From positions 1 through 17,420 of the forward strand of contig JAUWSP010000006.1 of NCBI GenBank assembly GCA_030610025.1: a DNA stretch of 17,420 bases, read 5' to 3'. This DNA comes from Acidobacteriota bacterium (GTDB taxonomy: Bacteria; Acidobacteriota; Thermoanaerobaculia; Multivoradales; JAHEKO01). Made by a program: the position numbers and the translations under genes. The notes below the pieces were generated by a model. The model was not told the DNA's origin, did no database searches, and was given only the letters and a program-made list of their open reading frames with translations. Shown piece by piece: positions 1,433 through 17,154 of this stretch; positions within the stretch are counted from its first letter, which is position 1; every line of letters begins with the position of its first letter.

Positions 1433-1487
1433 GCCACGGGAGCGGCGCGCGAATATTGAGGTAGCTACCTGGAGGTCCGAAGGTGGG

Positions 1488-2858
1488 TCATCGGGCGGCG
1501 AGCCAGGAGATCCAGGAGTCTTCCAACTCGCTCGGGCTCGCACCGTACAGATCTAGCCAGAGATGCAGCGCCTTTTCTTTCGAATCGCTGGCCCTGACTC
1601 CCTTGTAAAGCTTTTCGAAGGTTGGAAGGCCCTCCCGGTCGAGGAGAAACTCGACGAAGGAACCGGAGGCTGGGTAGCCGAAGTCGGTAGCCTCCCCTGG
1701 CGTGCCGATCTCGTGGTCGAGAAGCCGCCCCAACGGCACGGAGACTCCTCTCCTCCGGAGTTCGAGCGTCCTTCGATGGTTGAGGGTCGGGTCGCTTGCC
1801 CGAGCCTGCGCGTACATGGCCAGACCTTCCGTGAGAAACGACGTCGTCTCCCCCCAGCTTCGATCGAAGAGGGTGTGAGCGTTCTCGTGTACGACGAGGC
1901 CGAAATCGGGCGTCCCAGAATAGACGAGGTAAGAACCCGTTGCTGTCGCTAACGCTTCACCCCAGTGAAGGGTGTAAAAGACCTTGGAGTCATACCCGGT
2001 GAAATAGACCGTCGGCACTTTCGTCCAGGCCAAGTCTGCGCCATCGAAGAGATCGAGTAGAAAGTCCACGGATCGCTCGTTGACCCGGAGCAACTTGTCG
2101 ATATCGTCCTCGGTCAACGCTTGGTCCCGGGTCAGCAGAACGAACCGGGACGATTCCACCCGACGGAATCGTCCGGTAAAAGAACACTTCAGCTTCAGGA
2201 TCATGCGTTCCCTGCGAGGCGCCTCCTCCCCTTCTTGCCATTGCAGCAAGGCCTGCTCACCGAGAGGGCTGTGAGCCGCGAACAGCCTTCTGGCGGTCTC
2301 ATGGCTCAAGGAGATCACCGGAATGAGATCGTCGAAGCCCTTCATGCGTTGCGGCTTCAAGACGGGGTAGAAGACACTGTCCTCTCTCGGGAAGACGGCG
2401 ACTGCAGCCGAGCCGTTCCGAGCTGCGATCATCACTCGCTCTTCGAGAGTGTCTGAAGTTGTAGTGTCGTGGGTCATGAGCACGACGGCACCCTCGACGT
2501 CGAGGAGCAGGTCGTCTTCGCTCTGCCCTGACGACACCCCTAACCCTTGGCCGATGAAGATCAGGTCCGAGTCGAATAGGACGTCCCGCGAGTAGCCGCG
2601 GGTACCGGCCGGGGCTCGCACGGGCTCCATCACGATGGCCGGAAAGAAGGGTATCTGCTGGCTGGAGCCTCCGGGCTGGTAAGCGAGACACTCCGCCCAG
2701 GGAACGCGCGTTGCTAGATCATGGAAGTAGCTCGGCGACGGGCCTTGGCAGATAGCGATCGAGGCGCCGAAGAGGACTGAGAAAGTCGTTAGAGGAAGCA
2801 CTCGGACGAGAGATTTGGATGCAGTAAACCATCGAGTGCCGAGTGTCCCATCTGCCAT
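1488..2858 (-). CDS. Secreted PA-domain metallopeptidase (gluzincin, HExxH)
   Basis: This is a 456-residue protein, probably a zinc peptidase acting outside the cytoplasm. A hydrophobic export signal spans residues about 17-37 after a basic N-terminus. Residues about 90-200 resemble a protease-associated (PA) domain (LDVEGAVVLMTHD, AARNGSAAVAVFP, PVISLSHETARRLF). The catalytic part has HENAH at 324-328 and the likely third zinc ligand E344 in FLTEGLAMYAQA, a spacing typical of peptidase-MA-like/M1-type gluzincins. The C-terminus (YPASGSFVEFLLDREG, WLDLYGASPSELEDSW) fits the helical end of that family. The ATG at 2856-2858 follows an in-frame TGA and has GGGATAGG upstream. It is flanked by the 35-bp direct repeat, and the frame stays open for 71 codons after the TGA. 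Natural substrate unknown. Confidence 0.85.
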   Translation of the reverse strand: MADGTLGTRWFTASKSLVRVLPLTTFSVLFGASIAICQGPSPSYFHDLATRVPWAECLAYQPGGSSQQIPFFPAIVMEPVRAPAGTRGYSRDVLFDSDLIFIGQGLGVSSGQSEDDLLLDVEGAVVLMTHDTTTSDTLEERVMIAARNGSAAVAVFPREDSVFYPVLKPQRMKGFDDLIPVISLSHETARRLFAAHSPLGEQALLQWQEGEEAPRRERMILKLKCSFTGRFRRVESSRFVLLTRDQALTEDDIDKLLRVNERSVDFLLDLFDGADLAWTKVPTVYFTGYDSKVFYTLHWGEALATATGSYLVYSGTPDFGLVVHENAHTLFDRSWGETTSFLTEGLAMYAQARASDPTLNHRRTLELRRRGVSVPLGRLLDHEIGTPGEATDFGYPASGSFVEFLLDREGLPTFEKLYKGVRASDSKEKALHLWLDLYGASPSELEDSWISWLAAR

Positions 2859-3132
2859 ACATCAAGCCTATCCCATCCATCGGGGTATATCCGACGACCG
2901 CTTCGTGGTCCACTCCTGGTCCATCTCCGTGGACCTTGTGGACGGTTCCCGAACGGTCAGTGAGGCTTTCCGATATGTCTCCGTGGCCAGAAGAGGCATC
3001 TCGGATGACGTGAGCCCCAAATCTTGCTGCCGTTAGAATGTGAGTCCTCCGGCCGGCTAGATTCCACTCCAGTCACACGGTTCGGTGGGCTGACAGCGAG
3101 AACTAGTTATAGTTAGGCCAAAGACAGCAATC
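2859..3132. promoter_or_regulatory. Divergent intergenic region between peptidase and GNAT genes
   Basis: These 274 bp separate two divergently transcribed genes, so both promoters should lie here. No clear -35/-10 pair was recognised by eye. It contains copy B of the 35-bp quasi-palindromic repeat (2971-3005), which could be an operator. It also has a GTGGTCCACTC segment (2905-2915) matching the start of the 203-bp repeat further on. The regulatory role is inferred from gene orientation only. Confidence 0.35.
2971..3005. repeat. 35-bp direct repeat, copy B (upstream of the metallopeptidase)
   Basis: This is the partner of 1398-1432, with two mismatches in 35 bases. It lies between the divergent peptidase and GNAT genes, 113 bp upstream of the peptidase start. 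Outside the repeat the two flanks do not match, so this is not simply the edge of a long duplication. Confidence 0.75.
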
Positions 3133-3744
3133 ATGCATCAGCACTCGACAGTGTTTCGAGCCGCGAACCCCACCTTCGACGAGGGACGGGTGTTTGCCCG
3201 CTACCTCGACACAGCAGCTGAGGGCTTCTTCCGTTTCATGCTCGGCCGCCGCGCTGTGGATATAGTCGCCACGGCCTTCATCCAGCCCGACCACGACCTC
3301 TCCTTCCAAAACGTAACCTTCGCCGAATGTGACAAGACCATCGTGGGGATGGTCTCGGGCTACACCGCCGAGCAGCATCGTCGTTCCTCGGGCCGGACTC
3401 TGAAGCGGGCTGCGGGCAGGTGGAATCTGCGGATGATGGTTGTGTCAATACTGTTCGCACCACTTCTACGAATCATCGACACCATCGGCGATGGCGATTT
3501 CTACCTCCAGGCCATCGCCGTCGACAAGGAACTTCGGGGCGACGGCCTCGGTTCCGCCTTGATGGACTTGATTGAGGACCGGGCTGTTGCCAGTGGATCA
3601 GCCCGACTCGCCCTCGATGTCTCTGCCAAGAATGAGGGTGCTCGCAAACTCTACGAGCGCCGCGGGATGACTATTGAGTCGCAGTGGCCAAAACGCTTGG
3701 CCCTACCGGGATTGAGGTTCGTTCGAATGACGAAAGCGCTCTGA
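3133..3744 (+). CDS. GNAT-family N-acetyltransferase
   Basis: This is a 203-residue cytoplasmic protein that should transfer an acetyl group from acetyl-CoA to an amine. Motif A is clear: the strand FYLQAIAVDKEL followed by the pyrophosphate-binding loop RGDGLG (135-140) and helix SALMDLIEDRAVASG. Motif B follows as LALDVSAKNEGARKLYERRGM (160-179), with the usual N-x-x-A-x-x-x-Y pattern. The N-terminal 110 residues are longer than in minimal GNATs and include a hydrophobic stretch (MMVVSILFAPLL, 101-112). The substrate cannot be read from the sequence. The ATG at 3133 has only a weak ribosome site (AAAGACAG). The gene is divergent from the peptidase and convergent with the kinase. Confidence 0.88.
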   Translation: MHQHSTVFRAANPTFDEGRVFARYLDTAAEGFFRFMLGRRAVDIVATAFIQPDHDLSFQNVTFAECDKTIVGMVSGYTAEQHRRSSGRTLKRAAGRWNLRMMVVSILFAPLLRIIDTIGDGDFYLQAIAVDKELRGDGLGSALMDLIEDRAVASGSARLALDVSAKNEGARKLYERRGMTIESQWPKRLALPGLRFVRMTKAL

Positions 3745-3815
3745 AAGATGAAGGCGCGATCCGAACCACCCCAACGGTTGGCTTAGGCAGCTCACCCCTT
3801 TTCTGATCCACCCGA

Positions 3816-3839
3816 TGTGCGAATCCCTTCCCCTCCGCC
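3816..3839 (+). other. Degenerate tRNA-Ser 3' tail (T-loop to CCGCC)
   Basis: TGTGCGAATCCC followed by TTCCCCTCCGCC resembles the T-loop, 3' T-stem and 3' acceptor strand of a tRNA-Ser, with G in place of the second T of TTCGAAT. It matches 6912-6935 with three mismatches in 24. It sits about 25 bp beyond the kinase stop codon. No anticodon arm precedes it. It is probably a relic of integration into a tRNA-Ser gene. Confidence 0.45.
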
Positions 3840-3864
3840 GTGCCCTCATTTGCCACTCAGAAGC

Positions 3865-6594
3865 CTAGCTATCCAGCAGGTCTGTGCGAAACAGTTTCTT
3901 GCCTCCGAGCGAGATCCAGAAGGCGTAGAACGCGGGTGCCAGGAGAAAAACGAGCAGATAGGCCAGGACGTAGCCGAAATACCAGCCGGAAGGGTCGAAT
4001 ATCCGAAACATGTCCGCCATACCGGCATAGATTCCCGCGAAAACGATCGCCAGCAGCCCGAAGCGGATGGCAGTGAAGAACATCGATCCCCAGATGGTCG
4101 TGAATAGGAGGACCGCGATCGGCATTGGCAGCGGGTAGTCCGTGGAGTTCATGCTGAGGCTGAGGGTGGTCACGAGGATCGTCGTCAGCACGAGCCAGGT
4201 CAGCCAGTTTTTTCGCAGGGCGATTCGTGCGAGGACGACGAGTGTCGTGATTCCGAGGCCGAAGACGATAGGCCCCCCCAGGTTATTCACTGCTGCCGAA
4301 GCCCAGGCGGTCGTGCCGGCGATCGAACTGAGAGGGCCGGATCCGGGGAGAGCCGGCGGATTCGAAAACACCTGAACTCCGATGCGTGCGAAGATCACCA
4401 ACTGTACGATTGCGCCGCCGATGAGGGCGTCGCGGCCGATGAGCGGATCACGCACTCGGCCCTCCAGCAGACGCCTCCAGGCGATCATCGAGTTCGGCCA
4501 GACCCGGCGAACGAACGGTTCGGCCGCGACGTAGAACGTCCACGCCAGCAACGCCACGAAGAGGGAGTGCGCCATGATCTCCGCGATCACGGAGAATTCG
4601 CGCTGCGCCGAGGCGACGTGATTTGCTGACAGGGCACGCCAGACGAGGTTGAGAACGAGCACAAACATCGCAATCCTGAAGGCACCACGCCGGTCGGCGC
4701 GCCCCAGACGCAGATTGCGCCTCGCCAGCAGAACAGAGCCGATGAAGACCACCCCGATGATCGAAAAGACGACCGCCACGAGGATCAGTGGATCTTCTCG
4801 TTGATTATCCTGACTGGTGCCCTCTTCGTTACCGCTGGCCCTGAGTTGTTCGTACATGTCGCTCCATGGGGCGAACACTTCGAAGTACAGCGGCATTACC
4901 GCCGCACCGCAGGCCTCGATGTGAAGAAGGACATCATTCGGACCGCCGTAGCCACCCTCCCAGGCGATACGCTGCTCGCACTGGAGTTGGGGATTGGCGC
5001 GGGGCGTGATCGCTCGTAGAGCCTCGGGTTCCAACTCGGCGCGGCGCAGGAGCGGCGCCCAGTCAATCTCGGATTTGGTGGAGACTGCGCGAACTGCCGG
5101 CGGCACGACCTCGAGCTTCAACAACCGACCCTCCGCGTCGAGCCTTACGGTCGCCATACCGGCGATATCGAGGGGTGGCTGGCTCTCTTGAACATGCAAA
5201 TCGGAACCCCGTACATCCAGCCACTCGGGGCTTTGCCGGTACCAGTAGTAGACCGGGTGAGGTCGAACCGACTCAAGGTTGTCCCAGCGACTCGGCGAGT
5301 CGTCATTCTCCCTGACCCAGTCGTAGTAGGGGCTGCTGGTCAGGCCCCACGCTGTGTCGCCGACTGAGGCATCATGTCCTATCTCTTCGAGCGTCTGTTC
5401 CGCTGAGACGCGGAGCTCGGCCGGAGGCTTGGGCAATCCGATCCGTGCGATTGTCGCGTGGCGCGAGCGAAAGACGAATTCAGTCGTGACACCGATCAGG
5501 ATAATGGCCAGCAGTCCGAGAGCGACCGGAAGACTCAAGCCCCCCTTCTCGCCAGCGTTAGCGACCATCTCGGGCGACGGCGTCTCACCGGCGGCCAGAG
5601 CTGCGGCCAACGGATCGCCTCCCGGAAGAGCGGCGGAGATCGCAAGAGGCGACTCGGGGCGTTTCCGCGGATCGGGATCGAGACAGCGCAGGACGATTCT
5701 TTCGATCGTGTCATCGAGGCCGTCGACGTGACTCGACATGCTCACAGGCGTCGTGCTTTGTTGCATCTGCGCCAGCTCGGTGGCGCTCGAGGCCTCGAAG
5801 GCCCGCTCACCGGTGAGTAGCTCGTAGAGCACAAGACCGAGAGCGTAGATGTCGGAAGCCTTCGAGACCTCCTTGCCCGCCAGCTGCTCGGGAGCCTGAT
5901 AGGCAGGCGTCCCGGCGCGCACCTCGCCGCCCTCGATCGATTCCGCCAGGCCCGCCAGCCCGAAGTCTGTGATCCGGGCGCGACCCCTCCCGTCGATCAT
6001 GATGTTGGCTGGCTTGAGGTCGCGGTGGAGAATGCCCTCGTCGTGCGCTGCGGCGAGTCCCGCACAGAGCTGGCGAGCGATCTGCACCGCCTTGTCTTTC
6101 GGTACGTGACCAATACGGCGCAGCAGCGTGCCCAGATCCTCGCCGTCGACGTACTCCATGGATAGGAAGTGATGGCCGCCGACCTCACCGAGGTCGTGGA
6201 CGCGGCAGACGTTGGGGTGGGTGACCTGACGGGCGGTGCGGACTTCGTTGAAGAAGCGCTCGAGCCGTGCCTCGTCGCGGGCGAAGGCCTCGGGCAGGAA
6301 TTTCAAGGCCACCGGTTGGCCGAGCTTGAGGTCATCGGCGCGGTAGACCTCGCCCATACCGCCTCGGCCAAGCAGGCCGATCACCCGATAACGTTCCTCC
6401 AGCACCTGGCCGGGAAGGAAGCGCCCGCCGTCGCTCGGAGGGCCCGATGACGGAGGGTTGAACCGCGCCGCATCCACGGGTGACGCCAGCGTCGGCGCGC
6501 TGGTCAGCTCATCGAGCGCTGACCCACAAGAAGGACAGAAGCGACTCTCGGGCGGCGCAGGCGCCGAGCAGGAGGGGCAGATTCGAGCGGACAC
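3865..6594 (-). CDS. Membrane Ser/Thr protein kinase with zinc ribbon and multi-pass C-terminal domain
   Basis: This is a 909-residue Hanks-type kinase. In order: a zinc ribbon (CPSC at 6-9 and 20-23), a linker, and a kinase domain about 69-322 with glycine loop GRGGMGEV (76-83), VALK lysine K98, HRDLKPAN (190-197), DFG (210-212) and APEQL (234-238), so all catalytic residues are present. A first membrane helix (about 354-374) leads to an extracytoplasmic segment (about 376-600) with no recognised fold. About nine further helices run from about 602 to 893 and end in a basic tail. Kinases with one helix and a sensor are common; the polytopic end is unusual and may sense a membrane signal or carry another function. 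The start is GTG at 6592-6594, because an in-frame TGA lies just upstream; no Shine-Dalgarno is visible. Confidence 0.93.
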   Translation of the reverse strand: MSARICPSCSAPAPPESRFCPSCGSALDELTSAPTLASPVDAARFNPPSSGPPSDGGRFLPGQVLEERYRVIGLLGRGGMGEVYRADDLKLGQPVALKFLPEAFARDEARLERFFNEVRTARQVTHPNVCRVHDLGEVGGHHFLSMEYVDGEDLGTLLRRIGHVPKDKAVQIARQLCAGLAAAHDEGILHRDLKPANIMIDGRGRARITDFGLAGLAESIEGGEVRAGTPAYQAPEQLAGKEVSKASDIYALGLVLYELLTGERAFEASSATELAQMQQSTTPVSMSSHVDGLDDTIERIVLRCLDPDPRKRPESPLAISAALPGGDPLAAALAAGETPSPEMVANAGEKGGLSLPVALGLLAIILIGVTTEFVFRSRHATIARIGLPKPPAELRVSAEQTLEEIGHDASVGDTAWGLTSSPYYDWVRENDDSPSRWDNLESVRPHPVYYWYRQSPEWLDVRGSDLHVQESQPPLDIAGMATVRLDAEGRLLKLEVVPPAVRAVSTKSEIDWAPLLRRAELEPEALRAITPRANPQLQCEQRIAWEGGYGGPNDVLLHIEACGAAVMPLYFEVFAPWSDMYEQLRASGNEEGTSQDNQREDPLILVAVVFSIIGVVFIGSVLLARRNLRLGRADRRGAFRIAMFVLVLNLVWRALSANHVASAQREFSVIAEIMAHSLFVALLAWTFYVAAEPFVRRVWPNSMIAWRRLLEGRVRDPLIGRDALIGGAIVQLVIFARIGVQVFSNPPALPGSGPLSSIAGTTAWASAAVNNLGGPIVFGLGITTLVVLARIALRKNWLTWLVLTTILVTTLSLSMNSTDYPLPMPIAVLLFTTIWGSMFFTAIRFGLLAIVFAGIYAGMADMFRIFDPSGWYFGYVLAYLLVFLLAPAFYAFWISLGGKKLFRTDLLDS

Positions 6595-6687: not shown

Positions 6688-6890
6688 CTGTGGTCCACTC
6701 TCGGTCCCCTAAACCACAACAGACCACCACTCTCAGCATCGACCACAACAATCGCCCCTACCAGCGAAGCCCGGTCGCTTCGTTGTCAGGTGTTGTGGAG
6801 TGTTGTCAGTTGTAGGAAACCGGAGGTCTTGAAAACCGGCGACCGTTCATGCGGTCCAAGGGTGGGCTCCCGTTGGTCGCCGACACTGCA
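6688..6890 (+). repeat. 203-bp direct repeat, copy 1 (putative attachment junction)
   Basis: It aligns without gaps to 13908-14110, with 17 mismatches by hand count (about 92% identity). The left two thirds hold repeated CCACAAC (6714, 6733) and GTTGT/GTTGTGG (6782, 6792, 6802) motifs in opposing orientation, plus a hairpin CGAAGC/GCTTCG (6765-6782). The right third is a tRNA-Ser(UGA) 3' half. The layout resembles a tyrosine-recombinase attachment region: arm or core binding sites leading into a tRNA-derived core. No integrase gene is in the window. Confidence 0.8.
6825..6857 (+). other. tRNA-Ser(UGA) 3' half within repeat copy 1 (att-like core)
   Basis: GGTCTTGAAAACCGGCGACC (6825-6844) is, from memory, identical to the anticodon loop, 3' anticodon stem and start of the variable arm of bacterial tRNA-Ser(UGA), e.g. 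E. coli serT. The anticodon TGA is at 6830-6832. A perfect variable-arm hairpin follows (GACCG-TTCATG-CGGTC, 6841-6856). The 5' anticodon strand is wrong (GAGGT rather than CCGGT), and there is no D-arm or 5' acceptor, so this is not a functional tRNA. The break falls in the anticodon stem, a usual crossover site for tRNA-integrating elements. Confidence 0.7.
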
Positions 6891-6911
6891 CCACCCGCGC
6901 CTTCCCCTCCG

Positions 6912-6936
6912 TGTGCGAACCCCACCCCCTCCGCCA
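6912..6936 (+). other. tRNA-Ser 3' tail remnant ending in CCA
   Basis: TGTGCGAACCCC and then ACCCCCTCCGCCA resemble the T-loop, T-stem and acceptor end of tRNA-Ser with an encoded CCA. It lies 54 bases after the variable arm of the half-tRNA in repeat copy 1, as if the T-arm had been separated by an insertion, and 24 bp beyond the TPR gene stop codon. A similar tail is at 3816-3839; repeat copy 2 has none. Confidence 0.5.
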
Positions 6937-6960
6937 TTCTCAGCTACCTGATCAGTCGAA

Positions 6961-7830
6961 TCATGGCTGGTGCTCGGCGAGGAACTGCTTGGCCTCCTCG
7001 AGAACCTGGATCTCCTCGACGAGCAGCTCGGAGTTGGGTGACTGCCGCACCAGCCATTGCAACCGGTCGATGGCCTCGTCGTGGCGGCGGGGGTCAAACT
7101 TGAGGAGGGCTTCGGTCAGGAAGAGGTGGGCTCGAAGATCGTTCGGAGCTCCTTCCACCGCCCTCTCGAGCTCGGAGATCGCCACATCGCGGTCGACCCA
7201 ACCGGTGATCAGGGGGATCCTGGGCGCCTCGGTGTGCAATCTGCCGAGGACGCGATGACCACCGGCGTTCTCGTACTGGTCGTCGAGCGCTATGACGAGC
7301 TCGGAGTAGTCGCGGATCTTGTTGGCGACTCCCTTCCTGGCCGCCTTGAAATTACCCGCGTGGCGGCACCAAAGGCCCCAGTAGACGGCCGACCAGAAGT
7401 AGATTCCTGCCGCCTCGGGCTGATCACTGAGATGCTCCACCAGTCGAGGCTGGTTCTTCCCGCTGGCGTCGGCATAGGCGAGTCCTCCTGCCAGCTGCGC
7501 CATCCCCTCTGAGGCGACATCGAGGGCGCGCTCGAAGAGAGCGTGCTGATCCAGGGCCTCGCTCAACGTGAACTCGGCCTGGAAATAGAGAGCACGGAGA
7601 AGCTTGACGCGGGCCTCGAGGTCGTCCGGTTGAGCCGCCAGGGCCTCCTCGTAAGCGGCGACGGCTTCGCCGATGGGGCCGGGCAGCGCGTGGCTGCCGC
7701 GGTGCCCCTCGGCGCGGCGCCTGACGGCCTCGTCACCGCGTTCCAGGGCGGTCATTTCGCCGGCTTGCACGGCTCCTGCCATCAGAAGGTAGAGGGCGGC
7801 TGCGGCTGATACGGGTCTCGATCGTCGCAT
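6961..7830 (-). CDS. TPR-containing TatT-like secreted protein
   Basis: This is a 289-residue protein with a Sec signal peptide (residues 1-23, ending VQA-GE) and helical repeats. Segments such as AVAAYEEALAAQPDDLEARVKLLRALY and AISELERAVEGAPNDLRAHLFLTEALL are TPR-like. The middle (AAGIYFWSAVYWGLWC, then GVANKIRDYSELVIALDDQYENAG and GRLHTEAPRIP) recalls the TatT family, helical periplasmic partners of TRAP transporters. No TRAP transporter is nearby, so the role may be a general periplasmic scaffold. It is the last gene of a three-gene operon, 26 bp after the glycosyltransferase stop. The ATG at 7828-7830 has no obvious Shine-Dalgarno. The fold is fairly sure; TatT membership is likely but was not searched. 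Confidence 0.75.
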   Translation of the reverse strand: MRRSRPVSAAAALYLLMAGAVQAGEMTALERGDEAVRRRAEGHRGSHALPGPIGEAVAAYEEALAAQPDDLEARVKLLRALYFQAEFTLSEALDQHALFERALDVASEGMAQLAGGLAYADASGKNQPRLVEHLSDQPEAAGIYFWSAVYWGLWCRHAGNFKAARKGVANKIRDYSELVIALDDQYENAGGHRVLGRLHTEAPRIPLITGWVDRDVAISELERAVEGAPNDLRAHLFLTEALLKFDPRRHDEAIDRLQWLVRQSPNSELLVEEIQVLEEAKQFLAEHQP

Positions 7831-7856
7831 CGGTCGGGACTATTGTACGAAAGCGG

Positions 7857-9056
7857 TCACGAGATCTGCTTCAGCTCGACGCTGTGATACGGCGCCAGGT
7901 GAGAGTCGATCACGCGAGTCCAATCGTGAGTCTTTGCCAGATCGAGCGCGGCTGTCTCGGCATTCGACGCGCACTCGAGTGACGCCAGGGTGCCGCGCAA
8001 GGCAGTCGCCAGGTTGGTGGCGTCGGTAGGTGACCATTCATAAGTCCACACAGCCGGCGGTTGTTCGGGTATCGCCGAAAGGTGCTGTCCGCGGTCGGGA
8101 ACCAGAATCGGTGTTCCGTGCGCCAGCGACTCGAGGAACACTCGTCCAAGGGTGTCGGTCGTACTGGCGCTCACCATGATATCGGTGGCAAGGAACGCGC
8201 GGTCCAGACCTTTGCCGGAGAGAAGACCGGTGGAGCGAATATGCGGCTCGTCTTTCAGGGTTGATCGGAGCGGTCCATCTCCGACCAGCACCAGGGTCTC
8301 CTGGAGACGGGCGACGGCATCCGAGACCAGGCCGACGTCTTTCTCCTTCGAGACGCGCCCGACGAAGAGAATGATCGGCGCATCCTCACGAAGTCCGAGC
8401 ATCTCCTGCAGCTCTCGGCGGGCACGGCCCCGCAGCTGTCGGAGTTCGGACGCCGAGCTCGTGGGAAGCTTGACGCCCATCGGCGCGTAGTGGGTCCGTT
8501 TCGCGCCGACCTCGGTGGCTTCGGCGGCTGCCGCCGGTGAATGCGCCACGGTTATCTCGCTGCCGCCGTACAACCGCCTGATCAGGAATGGTACGACCAG
8601 GTTGGCGGGACGCAACAGTGATGGTGGCAGGAGATACGGTCCGAACTGGGACCAACGAGTGTGATGGGAGGTGATCAGTGGAACTCGCTTGGCCCTTGCG
8701 TACATCAACCCATAAAGGCCGAGTGGGCCGGGGCTGGCGCTATGAATGACATTGATTCTCTTGTGCTTGAATAACCGTGAGATCGCTCTGACGGGAATGC
8801 CCACCGGAACTTCCGGGTAGATGCGCCGCGGCAGCGTGGCGCGGGAGGGCAACACGACGAACCGACCGTTCTCTTTGTCGACTCGCTCGGCAGAGAAGCC
8901 GCTGCCGAGTATGTACAGCTCACAGGGCTGGGAGCGCCGGTGGAAGTGCTCGAAAAGCTCCCGGTAGGTAACGGAGATCCCATTGGTCATTCCCAGGGCA
9001 TCTGAAAGGAGGAGCACCCTCGGGCAGTTATCCGGACGATGACTCGGGGAATTCAA
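7857..9056 (-). CDS. GT4-family glycosyltransferase (GT-B fold)
   Basis: This 399-residue enzyme is expected to move a sugar from a nucleotide-sugar donor onto a lipid or sugar acceptor at the inner face of the membrane. The N-terminal Rossmann half starts RVLLLSDALGMTNGIS and carries HSASPGPLGLYGL (105-117), the acceptor-side loop. The C-terminal half has FVGRVSKEKDVG (231-242), LVGDGP (257-262) and TTDTLGRVFLESLAHGTP (299-316), the donor-binding EX7E region with D in the first acidic position, as in MgtA/PimB-like mannosyltransferases. The start is TTG at 9054-9056: the next ATG (residue 23) would delete the first strand, and an in-frame TAA lies seven codons upstream. It lies 18 bp after the ligase/reductase stop. 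The donor sugar cannot be told. Confidence 0.88.
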   Translation of the reverse strand: MNSPSHRPDNCPRVLLLSDALGMTNGISVTYRELFEHFHRRSQPCELYILGSGFSAERVDKENGRFVVLPSRATLPRRIYPEVPVGIPVRAISRLFKHKRINVIHSASPGPLGLYGLMYARAKRVPLITSHHTRWSQFGPYLLPPSLLRPANLVVPFLIRRLYGGSEITVAHSPAAAAEATEVGAKRTHYAPMGVKLPTSSASELRQLRGRARRELQEMLGLREDAPIILFVGRVSKEKDVGLVSDAVARLQETLVLVGDGPLRSTLKDEPHIRSTGLLSGKGLDRAFLATDIMVSASTTDTLGRVFLESLAHGTPILVPDRGQHLSAIPEQPPAVWTYEWSPTDATNLATALRGTLASLECASNAETAALDLAKTHDWTRVIDSHLAPYHSVELKQIS

Positions 9057-9074
9057 GGAAGTGACGTCGCAGCG

Positions 9075-12000
9075 TTAGCCTGGAGCTCCACCAGGAGGGA
9101 GTGAGTGAGCGAAGCGCTTGCCCATATTCGGTCTTGTCGGCGGCTCGGTGATGAGCCCCTGGCGGAGCATGGAATCGACGATCAGTGACACCGTCTCCGC
9201 CAACGATGGCTCGGCAATCTCCCGGCCGGATTGCTCCCGAGCCTCCCTGTAGCGATCGTGGTTGTAGCGCTTGAACTGCATCGCCGCAATCTTCTCGTAG
9301 TACTGGTTGAAGAAATCCAGCAGGGGGTAAACCGGATCATGACGAGTGCACCGCTGGTTCATCTGCTCGATGAAGTCGGGAATGTCGTGATAGCGGAACG
9401 AGTAGCCGAAGAGGCGGCTGATCAGATCGGTGATGTCCTTGAAGTTGTAGTACTTGTCAGCCGTCACGTGAAAGGTGCTGCCGTTGGCTCGCGGAACCTT
9501 GAGGATGGACACGATGTTGTGCGCGACGATGTCCGCCGGCAGGAAGCTGATCTGGTTGAGGGCGTTCACCCCAACGCCGTGCCGGATCATGAAGGCGAGC
9601 AACCGGACGGCGATGTCATCCCTGCTCCCGAAGTGGCCGGTCGATGCCGAGATCAGTGACGGCCTGTAGATACAGACGTCGAGCCCCTGCCTTTCTGCCG
9701 ACAGTACGAGCTGCTCCGCCACCCACTTGGTCTGTGCATAGCCGAAATCGAGGCTGGACATGTCGTCGTTGTTGTCGGTCTCCCAGAGCGTCGCCTTTGT
9801 CGTCCAGCCGAAGACGAAGGTGCTCGAGATCAGGTGGAAGATCTTCCGGCAGCCGGTGGCGGCAAGCCTCAGTAGCTCTCGTGTGCCATCGACGTTGTGC
9901 GGCTTCAAAGCCTCGTAGTCGAGCACGTAGTTCACCATCGCCCCACTGTGACAGATGGCCTGCACTTCCCGAGACAGGAGCTCCCAACGATGCGGCTCCA
10001 ACCCGAGACCCGGGCGGGATAGATCGCCGCAGACTGCCCGGACCCGTGTTTGTATCTGTTCTTCGAGCGCGGGCGTCCAGAGGTCTACCCGCCGGAGCGA
10101 TGCGCGAAGACGCTCCATTGCGTGATCGGCGTCGGTGGCCCGGATCAGAAGGTGGATTGTGTACGAGGTCTCACGCAACAGACTGGAGAGCAGGAAGGGC
10201 CCGAAGAACCCGGTCCCTCCGCTCATGAGGATGTCGGTCACCGGACGATCGTCCTTGTCAGGCAAGATCTCCGGAAGCGCCAACTTGGCATCGGAGTGCA
10301 TGCAGGTGTGCTCGTATGCTCTCTGCTCGTCACGGTTCTCCTCGAGCCGGCGTTGCAGGATCGGGATCGCCCTTTCGGGCTGACGCTCGAACCTCTCGAG
10401 GAAGGAATAGAACTCGGCGATGGTCAATCGTTGGAGGAGCCGCAGGTCGACCCCCTTCGCCAGCTTGCTGGCACCGTACTCCTCCAGCAGCTCCTTGACC
10501 TTGCTCACGAACTCGACCATGGTGATGGAGTCCATGCCGATCTCGGCGAAGGTGTGCTGTTCGCTGGCCGAGAGGTTGTAGAGATCCGCGAGGTAGCGAA
10601 AGCGGTCCATCAGTCCAGAACCGCTGTCGGGTACCTCGAGGACCTTCTCGTGCAACGCGACTACCGGCAGCTCTCCATCCAGCCAAAGCTGGCGACACTG
10701 GCTGCGCGAGACTTTCCCGGATGTAGTCTTGGGAACACTGCGGGGAGCGGTGCAGACGATTTTGTCGGGCTCGATGTAGTACTGCTTCCGGATCTCAGCG
10801 GCGATCGCCTTGAAGTCCGGAAGAGACCGTCTTCTCTTGCCCTCCACCACCACGACCAGCGCTTCGCTCTCTTCGTCTACCGAGAAAGCCGCCACGCATC
10901 CCTGGCGGATGTTGGAGGACGAGGCCTCTACGATCGCCTCGATGTCGTGAGGGTAGTAGTTGACACCGCGGATGATGATGAGGTCTTTGGTCCGGCCGCA
11001 AATGTAGAGCTCACCCTCGTGGAGGAATCCCAGATCTCCCGTTCGTAGATAGGTGCGTTCGTCGTCGGATTCGTGGTTGAGCGTGGCGTGAAAGACCTCG
11101 AGGGCCAGTTCGGGGCGTTTCCAGTAGCCGGCACACTTGCTCTCCCCGTCGACCCAGATCTCACCGATCTGATTCTCACCCTGCGCTATGTGGGAATCCG
11201 GATCCACGATCCGAACTACGTTGCCGTCGAGGGGCCTGCCACAGCTCACCACGCGGAGCTGGTTGTTGTTCCGTCCTTCCTCCCTCTCGATGTGTAGTAC
11301 TCGCTGCTGGAGCTGCTTCTTGTTGATGGTGAGCACCTTCTTGCCGTACGAGGACACCGCGAGAGTGTTCTCGGCGAGCCCGTAGGCAGCCACCAGCGAT
11401 CCGGTCCGAAGGCCGCTCTCCGAGAACCGCTCGAGGAAGCCGACGAAGGTATCCGCACGAACGGGCTCGGCCGCGTTCATCATCACCCTCAGGGAGCCCA
11501 GGTCAAAGCTGCGCAAGATCTCCGGCGGGATCTTGTCCTCCCGAAGACAGTATTCGTATGCGAAGTTGGGGGCCGAGGTGATGGTGCCTCGAACCCGGGT
11601 GATCGTTTCGAGCCAGAGCGCCGGTCGCTTGAGGAAGTTCATCGGCGAGAACCCATAGGTCGAGCCGCCCGTGATCACCGGGTAGAGGTAGTACCCGATG
11701 AAACCCATGTCGTGGTACTGCGGCAACCAGGTTACGGTTGTCGGTCTGTGGTCCAGCACGGCCGCCGAGTTGTGGATCAGGTTCCGGTGGGTGACGATGA
11801 CGCCCTTCGGGTCGCTCGTGGAGCCCGAGGTGTACTGAAGGAAGGCGATCGATTGCAGATCTCGCGATAACGAGATGGAAGTCTGCGTCGGCGCGTCGTC
11901 CGTGGTGACCCACTCGATGTTCGCCAACCCGGGGCCGTCGCGCAAGGCAGATCGCAGTCGCCGCTTGCTTTGGAGGGTCTGGTAGGACTGAAAGAATGCG

Positions 12001-12410
12001 CGGGTCGTCAGTGCGGCGCAGGCCTCGCAATCGCGCGCGATGAAGGCCATCTTGGCGAGGCCCCCCTCGAAGTTCAGTGGCGACGGGGGATAGAGCGGTA
12101 CCGGAATGACCCCGGCCCGCATGCAAGCGAATGAAGCCGCGATCAGCTCCAGGCCGGGTGGGTAGACCAGCAGCACCCGCGATCCGTGCCGCAGGCCCAC
12201 TGTTGCCGATAGATAGGCGGCCAGCTGCAGGGAGCGGTCCCGAAACTGGCCGTAGGTGTAGCTTTCCTGCTCCGTTCCGTCGATGTTGAGGAAGCTGTAG
12301 ACACACTTTTCCGGCTGTACGTCGGCCCAGTGGTCCAAGTAGTCGGGGACGGTTTTCAGTTGAGGTACGGACCAGGCACTCTCATGCTCAGAAAGCGTTG
12401 TCCGCGTCAC
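9075..12410 (-). CDS. Fatty acyl-AMP ligase / acyl carrier / thioester reductase fusion
   Basis: This is a 1111-residue three-domain enzyme. Residues about 15-590 are an adenylate-forming ligase of FAAL type: TSGSTSDPKGVIVTH (194-208), YGLAENTL (343-350), RTGDLGF (456-462) and catalytic K566 in TSGKVSR. Residues about 600-675 are a carrier domain with GMDSIT, where S628 takes the phosphopantetheine arm. Residues about 725-1085 are a NAD(P)H thioester reductase: GGTGFFG (731-737) and YAQTK (Y891, K895). It should activate a fatty acid, hold it on its own carrier and release an aldehyde or alcohol. The order is that of carboxylic acid reductases, but with a FAAL-type ligase, and recalls part of myxobacterial ElbD. 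The start is GTG at 12408-12410, with AGAGGGG upstream. It is the first gene of the operon with the glycosyltransferase and TPR protein. Confidence 0.93.
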   Translation of the reverse strand: MTRTTLSEHESAWSVPQLKTVPDYLDHWADVQPEKCVYSFLNIDGTEQESYTYGQFRDRSLQLAAYLSATVGLRHGSRVLLVYPPGLELIAASFACMRAGVIPVPLYPPSPLNFEGGLAKMAFIARDCEACAALTTRAFFQSYQTLQSKRRLRSALRDGPGLANIEWVTTDDAPTQTSISLSRDLQSIAFLQYTSGSTSDPKGVIVTHRNLIHNSAAVLDHRPTTVTWLPQYHDMGFIGYYLYPVITGGSTYGFSPMNFLKRPALWLETITRVRGTITSAPNFAYEYCLREDKIPPEILRSFDLGSLRVMMNAAEPVRADTFVGFLERFSESGLRTGSLVAAYGLAENTLAVSSYGKKVLTINKKQLQQRVLHIEREEGRNNNQLRVVSCGRPLDGNVVRIVDPDSHIAQGENQIGEIWVDGESKCAGYWKRPELALEVFHATLNHESDDERTYLRTGDLGFLHEGELYICGRTKDLIIIRGVNYYPHDIEAIVEASSSNIRQGCVAAFSVDEESEALVVVVEGKRRRSLPDFKAIAAEIRKQYYIEPDKIVCTAPRSVPKTTSGKVSRSQCRQLWLDGELPVVALHEKVLEVPDSGSGLMDRFRYLADLYNLSASEQHTFAEIGMDSITMVEFVSKVKELLEEYGASKLAKGVDLRLLQRLTIAEFYSFLERFERQPERAIPILQRRLEENRDEQRAYEHTCMHSDAKLALPEILPDKDDRPVTDILMSGGTGFFGPFLLSSLLRETSYTIHLLIRATDADHAMERLRASLRRVDLWTPALEEQIQTRVRAVCGDLSRPGLGLEPHRWELLSREVQAICHSGAMVNYVLDYEALKPHNVDGTRELLRLAATGCRKIFHLISSTFVFGWTTKATLWETDNNDDMSSLDFGYAQTKWVAEQLVLSAERQGLDVCIYRPSLISASTGHFGSRDDIAVRLLAFMIRHGVGVNALNQISFLPADIVAHNIVSILKVPRANGSTFHVTADKYYNFKDITDLISRLFGYSFRYHDIPDFIEQMNQRCTRHDPVYPLLDFFNQYYEKIAAMQFKRYNHDRYREAREQSGREIAEPSLAETVSLIVDSMLRQGLITEPPTRPNMGKRFAHSLPPGGAPG

Positions 12411-12876
12411 GGATCTCTAGACCCCTCTGAAAGTAGCGACGATCTCGGATCCTGCCGTTCCGGCAGCACCGTTGCGGCCGCTCCTCGCAGTCGATACTCA
12501 CGTTCTATCGCGGCGATGTGCAAGGTCCAGCGTAGATCTGACCCGTGTGCTATCACCCTCCTGAAGTCGTCTTCAGGTTCCCTTGGGATCAGGCACTGTG
12601 GCGCCGCGATAAATGAAGTGTAACAGGATCTCTGGCCGGGGAGCCGGTACGTGATAGCGTCTTTTATCGTCGATCCTCCTTCGCTTGCGGCTCCGCCGCT
12701 TGGTTGGTTTTCCGACCTCCAAGGCAACATGTGGTTCGCGATCGGACGGATCGGTCCTTTCATGGGGTTTAGGCAACAGTTGGTGAAGCTCGATCGAAGA
12801 GGAACATGCGCCACTTACCTGATTGCCAGCCCGCACTCGCCATCCGAGGTCGCGGCTTGACGGGGAAGAAGCCAGC
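12411..12876. promoter_or_regulatory. Divergent promoter region between ligase/reductase operon and SDR
   Basis: This 466-bp gap between divergent genes must drive both units. Frames here show no protein-like sequence and are rejected as genes. Visible structure: a hairpin CTGCC-GTTCC-GGCAG (12452-12466) in the ligase leader, and a perfect 7-bp hairpin CCTGAAG-TCGT-CTTCAGG (12560-12577) that could be an operator. No confident -35/-10 pair was recognised. Shared control of the two divergent units is an inference from the layout. Confidence 0.4.
12560..12577. promoter_or_regulatory. Perfect 7-bp dyad (possible operator)
   Basis: CCTGAAG and CTTCAGG are exact complements around a 4-base loop, near the middle of the divergent region. 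There is no T-run after it on either strand, so a regulator binding site is more likely than a terminator. Chance occurrence is possible. Confidence 0.35.
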
Positions 12877-13698
12877 GTGAAGAAGCCGTTAGTGGGGCAG
12901 AGGGCCTTGGTGACGGGGGCGAGCGCCGGTATTGGGGCCGAGCTGGCCAGACAGCTCGCCGCGCTCGGCGCCGACCTGGTCATCACGGCGCGCCGCGGCA
13001 AGGACCTGAGAGATCTCTCTCGCGCTATCGTCGAAGAAAGCGGCACCGATGTCCAGGTCGAGGCCATTGACCTGTGCGATCCGGGCGCCCCTCGAGCGCT
13101 CTTCGAGTGCACCGAGGGGGCTCACAAACCTATCGACCTACTCGTCAATAGCGCGGGTTTCGGTGCCTACGATGATTTCCTGATGATCCCCTGGGAACGG
13201 CATCAGAGGATGTTACTGCTGAACATCTTGGCGCTTACCCACCTCACCCATCTTTTCGCAGGCGCGATGGTGGGCCGAGGGCGAGGTCGGGTCATGAACA
13301 TCGCCAGCGTGAGCGCTTACCTGCCTTGTCCCAGCTTCGCGGTTTACTCGGCCGCCAAGGCCTACGTGCGTAACCTCACGGAAGCACTCGCATACGAACT
13401 GAGAGACACCGGGGTGACGGTGACCTCGGTGTGCCCCGGCGGCACCCGCACGGAGTTCTCGGGCCAAGCTGGGTTGACGCTGAAGAAGAGCGGAGAGATG
13501 TTCATGATGAGCGCAGCCGACTGCGCACGGATCGCGATTCGAGGGACGCTGGCGGGTCGCTCCAACGTCATCGCCGGCTCGTCGAATGCGGCGCTGATGT
13601 TTTTCCTGCGATGGGTTCCCCGGTTCTGGCTTGCACCCCTCGCGTTCAAGGTTTTGGGCCGGTCCGTAGAGAAGTCCAAACCGGCGAGCAGCACGTGA
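12877..13698 (+). CDS. Classical short-chain dehydrogenase/reductase
   Basis: This encodes 273 residues from GTG at 12877, chosen because GGGGAAG lies 8 bases upstream and the sequence then starts MKKPLVGQRALVTGAS, normal for the family; a TTG at 12823 would add 18 unlikely residues. Motifs: cofactor loop TGASAGIG (13-20), LVNSAGFG (89-96, NSAG in place of NNAG), N116, catalytic serine in NIASVSAY (S144 or S146), YSAAK (Y157, K161) and PGGTRTEF (188-194). ARR at 38-40 after the second strand suggests NADPH preference. The C-terminus (FFLRWVPRFWLAPLAFKVLG) is hydrophobic and may bind membrane, as in lipid-acting SDRs. It is divergent from the ligase/reductase operon, so it may act on its aldehyde or ketone product; that link is inferred. 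Confidence 0.9.
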   Translation: MKKPLVGQRALVTGASAGIGAELARQLAALGADLVITARRGKDLRDLSRAIVEESGTDVQVEAIDLCDPGAPRALFECTEGAHKPIDLLVNSAGFGAYDDFLMIPWERHQRMLLLNILALTHLTHLFAGAMVGRGRGRVMNIASVSAYLPCPSFAVYSAAKAYVRNLTEALAYELRDTGVTVTSVCPGGTRTEFSGQAGLTLKKSGEMFMMSAADCARIAIRGTLAGRSNVIAGSSNAALMFFLRWVPRFWLAPLAFKVLGRSVEKSKPASST

Positions 13699-13907
13699 TC
13701 CTGGCCCTCGCCAAAGCTCTGTTTGCGTGAGGAACTGTCCAAGGCTGGCCGTTCGGGTTGAAGACTCACCTTTCTCGCACTTGGAGTGAGCACGGGGGCC
13801 GCCAAGGGCTGACCCTCCCCCCAAGAACGGAACCGGTTTGAGGGTTAGGATCTGACACCTTTGACTGGGTCGAAAGAGAGAGTACTAGCGGCCAGTAGAC
13901 CATGATG
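13699..13907. other. Intergenic region after the SDR
   Basis: 209 bp with no supported gene. An SDR terminator would be expected but no clean GC stem with a T-run was found. A weak CTCAC/GTGAG pair (about 13766-13789) and a direct run into repeat copy 2 at 13908 are all that is visible. Confidence 0.35.
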
Positions 13908-14110
13908 CTGTGGTCCACTCTCGGTCCCCTGAACCACAACTAACCACAACTCTCAGCATTGACCACAACAATCGCCTCTGCCAGCGAAGCCCCGTCGCTT
14001 CGTTGTCAGTTGTTGTGGTGTGTTGTCACTTGTGGGAGATCAGAGGTCTTGAAAACCGGCGACCGTTCATGCGGTCCAAGGGTGGGCTCCCTCTGGTCGC
14101 CGACACTGCA
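13908..14110 (+). repeat. 203-bp direct repeat, copy 2 (putative attachment junction)
   Basis: This is the partner of 6688-6890, 7.2 kb away in the same orientation. It has three CCACAAC motifs (13934, 13944, 13963) facing GTTGT/GTTGTGG motifs (14002, 14012, 14022), the CGAAGC/GCTTCG pair, and the same tRNA-Ser(UGA) 3' half. Similarity stops at 14110. Most mismatches lie left of the tRNA part, which is nearly invariant. It closes the block that starts with the TPR gene and ends with the SDR. Confidence 0.8.
14045..14077 (+). other. tRNA-Ser(UGA) 3' half within repeat copy 2 (att-like core)
   Basis: It is identical to 6825-6857 over all 33 bases: anticodon loop with TGA at 14050-14052, 3' anticodon stem and the variable arm GACCG-TTCATG-CGGTC. 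The bases to the left (CAGA) again fail to pair with the 3' anticodon strand, and no T-arm follows. It is therefore a displaced half-tRNA rather than a gene. Confidence 0.7.
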
Positions 14111-14298
14111 TCCCCGCACCTGCTCGACGCGGGCCGGCGAAAGGAATACTGTGGCCTTGCACGAACAGATTTTCTCAGGAGGCAGGTTCCCCCGTGAGCT
14201 TTAAGATCGAGTACGAAGACAGCCGGGATGGGATCTGACCGACAAGTGCGGCGAGACTACGAGCAACGCAGCGCGGCTTCGCTGCCACGGGATCAGGC
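14111..14298. other. Leader region of the radical SAM operon
   Basis: 188 bp between repeat copy 2 and the first radical SAM gene. A strong ribosome-site sequence AGGAGG (14177-14182) precedes a GTG at 14194 that opens a 14-codon ORF ending at 14238. A second short frame (ATG 14228, 24 codons) ends with its TGA overlapping the radical SAM ATG. Either could be a leader peptide or chance. No promoter boxes were recognised with confidence. Confidence 0.35.
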
Positions 14299-15177
14299 AT
14301 GAAGCCCGTGCTGTACGGGATCGGGTACCTCCTCGGTTACCACTTGCTCCGACGACGCACCCCTCTAATCTGTGGACTGGTGCTGACGAACGAGTGCAAT
14401 CTGCACTGTCGTCACTGCAGGGTGGCCAGTCGGGGTAGGAACCGGCTCTCATTCGAGGAAATCGTGACGGTGATTGACTCATTCTTCGAAGAGGGGGGAC
14501 GGAACCTATACCTGGAAGGTGGTGAGCCATTCCTCTGGCGCGACAGCCACCGCCGTCTCGATGACATCGTCGCCCACGCGCACGGCAGGGGATATCACAC
14601 CGTTGTGGTCTACACCAACGGCACGTTTCCGATCGAAACCTCAGCGGACACGGTCTTTGTCAGCATCGACGGTCTTCGCAAAACGCACGACTACCTGAGG
14701 GGACCATCCTTTGACCGAATCATGGAGAACCTTCGGGCGTCTCAGCATCCGTCCATGCACGTGAACTACACCATCAACAACCACAACAAGGACGAGATAG
14801 AGGAGTTCTGTCGCTTCATCGATGAGGTAGACGAGATTCAGGACGTGTTCTTCTACTTCCACACGCCGTACTACGGCTACGACGAGTTGTACATCGGCCT
14901 TGAAGAGCGACAGCGGATACTGCGGAAGCTGATAGGGTTTTCGAGGAAGCACAGCATCCTGAATTCGCGCGCGGGTCTGGAATGTGCCCTGAGAAACGAC
15001 TGGAACCGACCGCTGGACATCTGCCGAGTCTCTGAGAAGGGCACGGTGTACAAGTGCTGCAGATTCTCGGAGAACGCGGATTTGTGCCGAAACTGCGGCT
15101 ACCTGAGCTACGCGGAAACACACCAGACACTGGGGTTGAGACCGTCAGCGGTCAGGAAGGCACTGGAGTACTTCTGA
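14299..15177 (+). CDS. Radical SAM protein with cysteine-rich C-terminus
   Basis: This is a 292-residue radical SAM enzyme. The [4Fe-4S]/SAM motif is CNLHCRHC (C33, C37, C40), followed by LYLEGGEPFLW (GGEP 74-77), VVVYTNGT (102-109) and VFVSIDG (119-125), the standard strands of a partial TIM barrel. The C-terminal part has further cysteines: C229, C242, C253, C254, C263 and C266, in CRVSEKGTVYKCC and DLCRNC. This resembles a shortened SPASM/twitch region that could bind an auxiliary cluster. The first 20 residues (LYGIGYLLGYHLLRRR) are amphipathic and may sit on the membrane. The ATG at 14299 is the only start after the in-frame TGA at 14236; its ribosome site is poor. It is first in an operon with a secreted START-like protein and a second radical SAM protein. 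Substrate unknown. Confidence 0.9.
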   Translation: MKPVLYGIGYLLGYHLLRRRTPLICGLVLTNECNLHCRHCRVASRGRNRLSFEEIVTVIDSFFEEGGRNLYLEGGEPFLWRDSHRRLDDIVAHAHGRGYHTVVVYTNGTFPIETSADTVFVSIDGLRKTHDYLRGPSFDRIMENLRASQHPSMHVNYTINNHNKDEIEEFCRFIDEVDEIQDVFFYFHTPYYGYDELYIGLEERQRILRKLIGFSRKHSILNSRAGLECALRNDWNRPLDICRVSEKGTVYKCCRFSENADLCRNCGYLSYAETHQTLGLRPSAVRKALEYF

Positions 15178-15216
15178 CCTCGCCGATCACCGTGGTCCTT
15201 GCGAGGGGGGGTGATC

Positions 15217-15807: not shown

Positions 15808-15858
15808 GATCACTCGTCCTGACGGTGAACTCCAGGCGTCTGCAAGGGAGTGTTCCAG

Positions 15859-17154
15859 ATGATCGGGGGGTTCGCCAGGAGGCGCCTGAGTAGGCTGCTC
15901 ACGGGAGAGGCCGAAATCGCCTTGGTGAACAGGGTTCCCTCGGTGGCGGAGCTCGGTGAGAAGCTTCGCGAGGTCGATGAGCTGGGGATCTACCTCCACA
16001 TCCCCTTCTGTGACCAGATGTGTTCTTACTGCCCCTACAACAGGGAGCTCTATCGCGCTGAGGTGGCGCTCGAGTACGCCACTGCCGTCAGAAGGGAGAT
16101 CGACTTCTATGCCGATGCCGTCGGCAAGAGACCGATCACCTCTCTCTACATCGGCGGTGGGACACCCACGACCATGCTTCATAGTGGGATCGAGAACATC
16201 CTGGATCACCTCTTCGCCACCTTCGATGTGCAGTGCGACATCCATATGGAGAGCCACCCGAACGATCTATGTCTCGCCAATCTCAGGAAGATCGGCTCCC
16301 TTGGAGTGCGGCATCTGAGCATCGGCGTCGAGGCCCTGCAGGACCGGCACCTGGAGGCCCTCGGCCGGCCCTATACGGCTTCGGAAGTGAGAGCGGCCGT
16401 CGATCGCGCCGTCAGCTGGGGCTTCGAGTGCGTCAATGTGGATGTCATGTTCGCGCTGCCGCACCAGACATGCCAGGAGATCGAGGAGACGGGCCACGCA
16501 CTGATGGAGATGGGTGTCGACCAGGTTGCCGCGTACCCCTTGTTCAGCTTCCCGTACACCAGGATGGGTGGGAGGCAGGGGGGAAACGGCAGCCGGATCC
16601 CCCGGGTCTTCCGACGACGGAAGATGCTTCGTGTCCTGGAGTCGATCTTCTACGGTGCCGGATTCGAGAGAACCTCGGTCTGGGCGTTCACCCGGAAGGG
16701 CAACCCGAAGTACTGCTCGGTGACTGTGCCTCTCTATCTGGGCCTGGGTGCTAGCGGGGGCACCTACCTGAAGGACATCTTCTATCTCAATACCTTCAAT
16801 GTGGCGGAGTACATCGATGCCCTCAGGAAGAGCGAGATGGCCATCGCGTTGTCTCTTGATCTGTCGGAGAGGATGCAGATGGCGGGCTGGCTCTACTGGA
16901 GGGTCTACGAAACGAGGTTTAGCAAAGCGGATTTCGAGGAGAGGTTCGGCACGGATTTCGACAGCGTCTATGGCAGGTATATGAAGCCGCTAGCCTCGGT
17001 CGGATTCCTCGAGGACGATGGAGGGGAGATCGTGCTGTCGGACAACGGCACCTACTGGCTGCACGCCCTCGAAGACCTCTTCTCGATCGAGTACGTCAGC
17101 AGGCTCTGGGGGACTTCGAGGCAGACGCCGTGGCCGGAGGCGGTGGTCCTGTGA
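15859..17154 (+). CDS. HemW/HemN-like radical SAM protein (coproporphyrinogen-oxidase family), not a typical HemW
   Basis: This encodes 431 residues from ATG 15859, placed 8 bases after AAGGGAG; GTG 15850 is possible. The motif GIYLHIPFCDQMCSYCPY (C51, C55, C58) plus LYIGGGTPT (96-104), SIGVEAL (154-160) and VDVMFALPHQT (194-204) places it in the HemN/HemW family. HemW, a heme chaperone, carries HNxxYW shortly before YLGLGPGA. Here the equivalent is GNPKYC (281-286) before YLGLGASG, so the heme-ligand histidine and the tryptophan are missing, and the residue after the third cysteine is P rather than D. The C-terminal HemN-like domain (about 330-400) is retained. It is last in the operon. It is probably an oxidoreductase or methyltransferase-like enzyme with an unknown substrate. 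Confidence 0.88.
   Translation: MIGGFARRRLSRLLTGEAEIALVNRVPSVAELGEKLREVDELGIYLHIPFCDQMCSYCPYNRELYRAEVALEYATAVRREIDFYADAVGKRPITSLYIGGGTPTTMLHSGIENILDHLFATFDVQCDIHMESHPNDLCLANLRKIGSLGVRHLSIGVEALQDRHLEALGRPYTASEVRAAVDRAVSWGFECVNVDVMFALPHQTCQEIEETGHALMEMGVDQVAAYPLFSFPYTRMGGRQGGNGSRIPRVFRRRKMLRVLESIFYGAGFERTSVWAFTRKGNPKYCSVTVPLYLGLGASGGTYLKDIFYLNTFNVAEYIDALRKSEMAIALSLDLSERMQMAGWLYWRVYETRFSKADFEERFGTDFDSVYGRYMKPLASVGFLEDDGGEIVLSDNGTYWLHALEDLFSIEYVSRLWGTSRQTPWPEAVVL

Follow-up and report, generated by a model that had tools for sequence, protein, structure and literature searches.

The stretch analysed here (17,420 nt, positions 1 to 17,420, forward strand, of contig JAUWSP010000006.1 in the Acidobacteriota bacterium assembly GCA_030610025.1; hereafter the window, from genome G000) carries cargo genes that are separated by two copies of a long direct repeat, termed sites 1 and 2, and by shorter site remnants. 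Each copy contains a part of a tRNA-Ser(UGA) gene, and the copies are interpreted below as attachment (att) sites of tandem integrative elements. The site features of the window, by coordinates and strand, are:

1377..1473 (+), truncated right arm (P' remnant) at the left end of a unit termed cassette A; 86% over 88 bp against the right-arm region of a site in a relative (G001:C85)
2903..3005 (+), degenerate site, a left arm joined to a right arm at the common GGTCCA and no tRNA core, from comparison with left and right arms
3786..3840 (+), scar with the tRNA-Ser T-loop/acceptor end CGAATCCCTTCCCCTCCGCCG at 3820-3840 and no anticodon core
6688..6822 (+), left arm (P) of site 1, with tandem GTGGTCCACTCTCGGTCCCCT and then CCACAAC / GTTGTGG repeats
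6823..6862 (+), tRNA-Ser(UGA) anticodon arm, variable arm and first T-stem strand of site 1
6863..6915 (+), T-arm insert of site 1, ~50 nt, type B; not present in the G001:C165, G001:C12 and L089 copies
6916..6936 (+), remaining tRNA-Ser 3' half of site 1 (T-arm 3' strand, acceptor, CCA)
13908..14115 (+), site 2, with left arm, tRNA-Ser(UGA) anticodon and variable arm, and part of the T-arm insert; tRNA 3' end lost

A sequence-only reading of this DNA had described two identical 33-bp segments as tRNA-Ser(UGA) 3' halves that flank a block of genes. The segments are exact at 6825-6857 and 14045-14077, both on the plus strand, and form the core of a 208-nt direct repeat (6688-6895 and 13908-14115) with 189 of 208 positions identical (91%) and a longest exact stretch of 49 nt (6823-6871); the 33-mers are real and understate its extent. 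In shuffles of the window (first-order Markov, n=20), the longest exact direct repeat was 13-16 nt. The repeat comprises an arm of ~135 nt with tandem TGGTCCACT-type motifs, followed by tRNA-Ser(UGA) from the anticodon arm on, i.e. the anticodon arm (loop CTTGAAA), the variable arm, and the first T-stem strand. The proposed tRNA identity holds, since 18 of the 22 loci in relatives that match 39-48 nt of the core (L014-L035) were called tRNA-Ser(UGA) by ARAGORN. The tRNA 5' half is absent at both window copies, as had been stated, and ARAGORN and Rfam (gathering thresholds) gave zero tRNAs over the window, which is expected, as only half a tRNA is there. The description as displaced 3' halves is supported by the relatives (below), with one correction: the T arm is non-canonical, with ~50 extra nt between the T-stem GGG and CGAACCCCACCCCCTCCGCCA (6916-6936) in copy 1 and the tRNA 3' end gone in copy 2. 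The sequence-only reading had this core right; it did not mention the arm, the break in the T arm, or the additional scars (1377-1473, 2903-3005, 3820-3840). The stretch 3786-3822 of the last scar repeats at 97-100% identity in two further places of G000, and this scar probably separates two cassettes.

The two tandem motifs of the left arm lie ~11 bp apart (GTGGTCCACTCTCGGTCCCCT in window copy 1) and are followed by the CCACAAC and GTTGTGG repeats. Both motifs covary across genomes, for example as GTGGCACACTCCTGGCACACT at two G016 sites and as GTGGTGCACTGGTGGTGCAGT at some sites of arrays behind selC; GTGGTCCACT is the version used in the genus of the window. The right arm, where retained, carries GTGGTCCACTGGTGGTCCATT. 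A complete site (left arm, core, right arm) is found on G001:C85, around 1751-2181, where a right arm with GTGGTCCACGGGTGGTCCATT comes after the tRNA 3' end; the neighbouring site on this contig has its right arm and a partial left arm, and right arms are also present at sites or the tRNA of G005 and G011. The arm motifs are putative integrase-binding sites.

Two distinct sequences of ~50-70 nt (types B and C) break the T arms of tRNA-Ser 3' halves at roughly one place, in the window (6863-6915), at sites of L038, L040 and L174, and at L041:3817-3880 and L047:105-262; both are also found beside a tRNA-Ser(GGA) 3' fragment on G001:C35. These inserts may represent junctions left by a second family, with a crossover in the T loop of these tRNAs. 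The selC arrays contain additional selC T-loop/acceptor ends with different upstream sequence (L166:10133, L166:6158, L176:8677), which parallel the T-arm scars of the Ser arrays.

A sequence profile of the arm-bearing site detected 46 sites, which are spread over 12 genomes and 29 of the 36 contigs searched; this count is not independent, as the contigs were picked from earlier matches and the profile was built on 33 sites that are nearly all among them. The site recurs with other neighbours in 12 genomes; recurrence of the half-tRNA junction with other cargo was one of the checks proposed with the sequence-only reading. All sites are on one strand in each of the nine multi-site contigs (9/9, 26 sites). 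The profile gave 0 matches on 41 control stretches (446 kb), which comprised 37 of the 40 fetched integrase neighbourhoods and four other stretches; the other three neighbourhoods (L213, L214 and L218) were earlier matches and were counted with the targets. In an independent genome search with a first 13-sequence model, 16 of the 18 genomes of the family matched at E <= 0.01, some of these matches being merely tRNA-Ser genes.

Contigs with both a site and an intact cognate tRNA have the sites downstream and co-oriented in 6/6 cases. Three of these arrays are rooted in tRNA-Ser(UGA) (G005:C290, G007:C68, G048:C30), where same-strand sites after the intact gene bear out the suggestion of stacked insertions at tRNA-Ser; the others are rooted in selC (G008:C26, G007:C30, G009:C48). 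On G008:C26, seven sites follow an intact selC and delimit units of 0.9-5.5 kb, with genes for serine/threonine kinases, a HigB-like toxin and its helix-turn-helix (HTH) partner, a transposase pair, an outer-membrane barrel, and a SnoaL protein. G005:C5 and G011:C49 carry sites that have no root on the contig itself and are close to an opposite-strand tRNA-Arg; the arm-bearing site of G011:C49 (L177:9872-10095) has no Ser/Sec 3' half and abuts an opposite-strand tRNA-Arg(ACG).

A wider contig search gave eight matches, six of which are contigs of G001, G002, G005 and G011. The end of contig L089 (JAFDAJ010000234.1), labelled Deltaproteobacteria, is a true site of the type of the window's genus and reflects either misbinning or transfer; a match in L091 (Bacteroidales) was rejected as a low-complexity chance match. 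Scans of IMG/VR with two arm motifs gave 2 and 0 matches; the 2 lie inside open reading frames (ORFs) with no tRNA nearby, and were read as chance.

Integrases with the arm motif are found at the same two tRNAs. In G016, a 402-aa integrase is encoded directly downstream of selC, and another, in a 438-aa ORF, directly downstream of tRNA-Ser(UGA); both match PF00589 and a PHROG integrase family, each has the tandem arm motif ahead of its start, and each is followed by primase/helicase-like genes, at the Ser locus also by an HNH gene. These founder candidates look satellite- or phage-like. Directly behind tRNA-Ser(UGA), G051 encodes a homologue at 50%, and the previously suggested link to a tyrosine recombinase is thereby upheld. 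Further homologues, some broken or cut, are located 0.1-1.4 kb behind tRNA-Leu or tRNA-Lys in G005, G007, G008, G011 and G012.

No recombinase is encoded in the window, and the block at 6937-13907 contains zero integration genes between its two sites, as had been noted. Searches with PF00589 found only XerC in G000, only XerC and XerD in G001, and none in G009. Among the 28 site-bearing contigs of 18 family genomes that were searched (G048 being outside this search), a single one, G016:C112, has a PF00589 match. None of the integrases whose upstream arm was inspected had the arm version of the window's genus. Against the integron integrase model TIGR02249 (cut-off 265), the recombinases of G000 (132.6 bits) and G001 (131.8 and 116.8 bits), the two genomes compared, all score below the cut-off. 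On G002:C439 and G013:C95, at least three tyrosine-recombinase matches stand in succession, rows which we take to resemble recombinase-in-trio elements.

One unit of the window is shared, site to site, with a relative. Cassette A (1377-2902) matches G001:C85:322-1847 at 98.7% identity over 1526 bp, and the G001 copy sits between two sites. The identity stops at 2902/2903, where the left arm starts, and its other end is within the right-arm remnant. As a baseline, the two genomes agree at 88.2% in rpoB, at 93.7% over one chromosomal stretch (794 bp), and at 83.7% over another (362 bp). For such comparisons rpoB was looked for in 10 genomes; it was found in 7, in G009 and G012 as a partly cut gene, and was not found in G005, G007 and G016.

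The tRNA halves mostly resemble the host's own tRNA. In genomes with a known selC, 11 of 12 selC sites (five of the seven sites of G008 being taken in) fit their own gene best (95.6-100%); the exception, on G007:C129, is 97.1% identical to the selC of G008 versus 82.9% to its own. No host selC was available to compare with four other selC-type sites (three in G012, one in G011). For Ser, as read by eye from alignment rows, two sites each on G005:C290 and in G011 and one each in G016 and G009 are identical to the host tRNA, and in G048 the identity holds up to the T-arm insert.

Two further shared stretches were not retained as cassettes. A G007/G012 stretch (90.7%, 713 bp) was first taken as a shared cassette and is not used. 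A G008/G009 stretch (94%, 825 bp) was dropped as evidence of cassette transfer, because it covers a kinase domain from the start codon and is not bounded by sites. This array-kinase domain DNA (L166:9133-9957 and L176:12598-13422) is 94% identical between two genera whose rpoB is 79.9% identical, with unmatched flanks, and the identity begins at the start codon in G008; from these alignments, kinase domains may be exchanged among array genes.

We consider the window to be, with high probability, part of an accretion array, i.e. of integrase-less, att-bounded integrative elements in tandem. Each unit would consist of cargo closed by an attachment site (left arm, tRNA-Ser(UGA) anticodon-arm core, tRNA 3' half, and right arm where retained). 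A phage-type tyrosine integrase, encoded by a founder element that resembles a satellite or prophage and sits at that tRNA, would cut in the anticodon loop, this crossover position being the probable one, and insert a circular unit at the tRNA or at a site already in place; the incoming 3' half would complete the tRNA again, and the old half would be displaced downstream. Repeated insertion would build a stack in one orientation behind one tRNA. Cargo units could be carried in trans, or in cis when excised along with an integrase-bearing neighbour. On the best reading, the elements of the window lost, or never had, an integrase of their own; an integrase would probably act on the cassettes in trans, and some units may still move today. 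The site anatomy, the arrays, their tRNA roots in relatives, the integrases with the arm motif at those tRNAs, and the one shared site-bounded cassette are observed, whereas movement is deduced from them.

Several observations weigh against this interpretation. An intact tRNA-Ser(UGA), the subject of another proposed check, stands upstream of sites in relatives and was not recognised in G000 (85% complete), so the root of the G000 array, not assembled, can only be deduced; four candidate places there are the two window copies, a site on C218, and a place on C345 that is no tRNA according to ARAGORN, and none of nine places with a D-arm pattern was a tRNA by the same program. Neither site 1 nor site 2 has a recognisable right arm, and site 2 also has no tRNA 3' end; similarity among the seven sites of G008 mostly stops with the tRNA half. 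Ser sites on G005:C5 and G007:C68, read by eye, differ from the host tRNA. Both G000 and G001 are draft bins, and the 794-bp chromosomal stretch is itself at 93.7% between them, so misbinning could mimic the shared cassette A. A founder-type integrase was not found in G000, G001 and G009, despite 4, 5 and 3 sites, respectively, so these arrays may be frozen; and G016:C112 carries a C-terminal integrase fragment (7028-7270), 2.7 kb from an arm-bearing site, as decay would give, possibly a decaying founder.

These last points lead to a serious rival, which we regard as quite possible: successive integrase-bearing elements entered the tRNA, their integrases decayed, and the cargo is now immobile. 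Such frozen relics would leave the same anatomy, and the two explanations differ on mobility. Degenerate sites in the window and broken integrase genes behind tRNA-Leu in G007 and G008 also speak for relics, and the case is strongest in the window's genus, with its decaying sites and no cognate integrase found. It is countered by the site-bounded cassette at 98.7% against 88.2% for rpoB, by the G008-type selC half within G007, and by the units of G008, which are small (0.9-5.5 kb) and lie on a contig with no PF00589 match.

The remaining alternatives address what made or moved the repeats. That host XerC/XerD move the sites in the fashion of dif modules would agree with the PF00589 proteins found in G000 and G001, which are of this kind only; however, the sites are long and asymmetric, combine arm motifs with a tRNA core, and are similar to the arm next to another integrase, of phage type, and we judge this very unlikely. 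A self-spreading dispersed repeat (transposon or retro-type) with an incidental tRNA fragment would account for a multicopy sequence that carries a tRNA half, but not readily for the single orientation on all multi-site contigs, the position behind the cognate tRNA in every rooted contig, or a core that switches with the tRNA target; it is slightly less likely still. Least likely of all is a segmental duplication through homologous recombination, with the cargo as ordinary chromosome: the copies are 91% identical, as this would have it, but the same site occurs with other neighbours in 12 genomes, and the 7-kb block between the copies (6937-13907) is matched in the DNA of G001, G002, G005 and G011 only by parts of the TPR gene and by three short segments (59-97 bp), which fall in the ligase and dehydrogenase genes.

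The cargo predicted in the window under the accretion-array interpretation, assigned by Pfam, is:

1377..2902, cassette A, a single gene at 1488-2858 (-) for a 456-aa protein with a weak MA-clan-peptidase match, under the Pfam cut-off
3133..3744 (+), GNAT acetyltransferase
3865..6594 (-), serine/threonine kinase, 909 aa, with zinc ribbon
6961..7830 (-), TPR protein
7857..9056 (-), GT4-type glycosyltransferase
9075..12410 (-), AMP-ligase fused to a thioester-reductase-type NAD-binding domain, 1111 aa
12823..13698 (+), short-chain dehydrogenase (SDR)
14299..15177 (+), radical SAM protein beyond site 2, in the next cassette or the flank
15850..17154 (+), radical SAM / HemN_C protein beyond site 2

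The TPR, GT4, ligase/reductase and SDR genes that had been placed between the tRNA halves are thus present as named. The AMP-ligase-reductase fusion (9075-12410), whose ligase we take to be FAAL-like, adjoins the GT4 and SDR genes, which suggests a lipid or glycolipid pathway. Outside its own genome, in 145 genomes of the class with five candidates scored per genome, the matches listed for the fusion protein span the ligase part only (residues to ~640), the best at 46%. None of the window cargo was called as defence genes, the padloc matches being generic (kinase) or weak (radical-SAM).

Among known systems, as far as the accounts drawn on here describe them, the nearest case is that of the Dehalococcoides ssrA islands, and cis-mobilizable elements (CIMEs) with accretion are the general category. 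The Dehalococcoides islands stand in tandem downstream of one RNA gene, whose 3' end is repeated directly at their boundaries, and 15 of them have no integration module and were suggested to be possibly cis-mobilizable (PMC3146451). The arrays described here share the tandem units behind one RNA gene, the 3'-end repeats, and units without an integration module; they differ in target and enzyme, i.e. the anticodon arm of tRNA-Ser(UGA) or selC and a tyrosine integrase, versus the T-loop of tmRNA and the serine recombinase DsiB (PMC3146451), and also in the long arm sequence retained at the junctions, in units down to ~0.9 kb, and in the phylum. CIMEs have no integration genes, retain att sites, and become stacked through site-specific integration, termed accretion (PMC5704250). 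The units described here are likewise att-bounded, stacked, and without integration genes; unlike for CIMEs, no related integrative and conjugative element was identified (transfer genes were not searched for), up to seven junctions stand in a row, and the founder candidates carry integrase, primase/helicase-like and HNH genes.

The dif modules of Acinetobacter plasmids, on the accounts available, are similarly gene modules without a recombinase, bounded by sites of a recombinase encoded elsewhere. The Xer sites of dif modules are short and lie on plasmids, whereas the sites here are of ~200 nt, bear arms, and are located at tRNA genes on apparently chromosomal contigs. Integrons hold rows of small co-oriented units at one anchor, with toxin-antitoxin genes among the cargo, and both traits are shared here (the HigB-like toxin and HTH partner of G008); unlike in integrons, the recombinases of G000 and G001 fall below the integron-integrase cut-off, and the sites are att-like, with arms. 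In the open-access literature on tandem or cassette arrays at tRNA genes, cis-mobilizable elements, and Acidobacteriota islands, no account of such a system was found.

A tentative extension of this comparison is a tRNA-anchored counterpart of the integron, in which a satellite/phage-type integrase would act in trans and insert integrase-less circular cassettes, each with one arm-core-tRNA-half site, into tRNA-Ser(UGA) or selC, forming long co-oriented arrays across the Thermoanaerobaculia, with the tRNA half as a donor tag. If so, integrons and dif modules would be joined by a further architecture that stockpiles genes without a recombinase; its cargo (kinases, a toxin-antitoxin pair, lipid and glycan enzymes) would be directly findable by a search for the sites, and a cassette's donor may be recognisable from the tRNA half.

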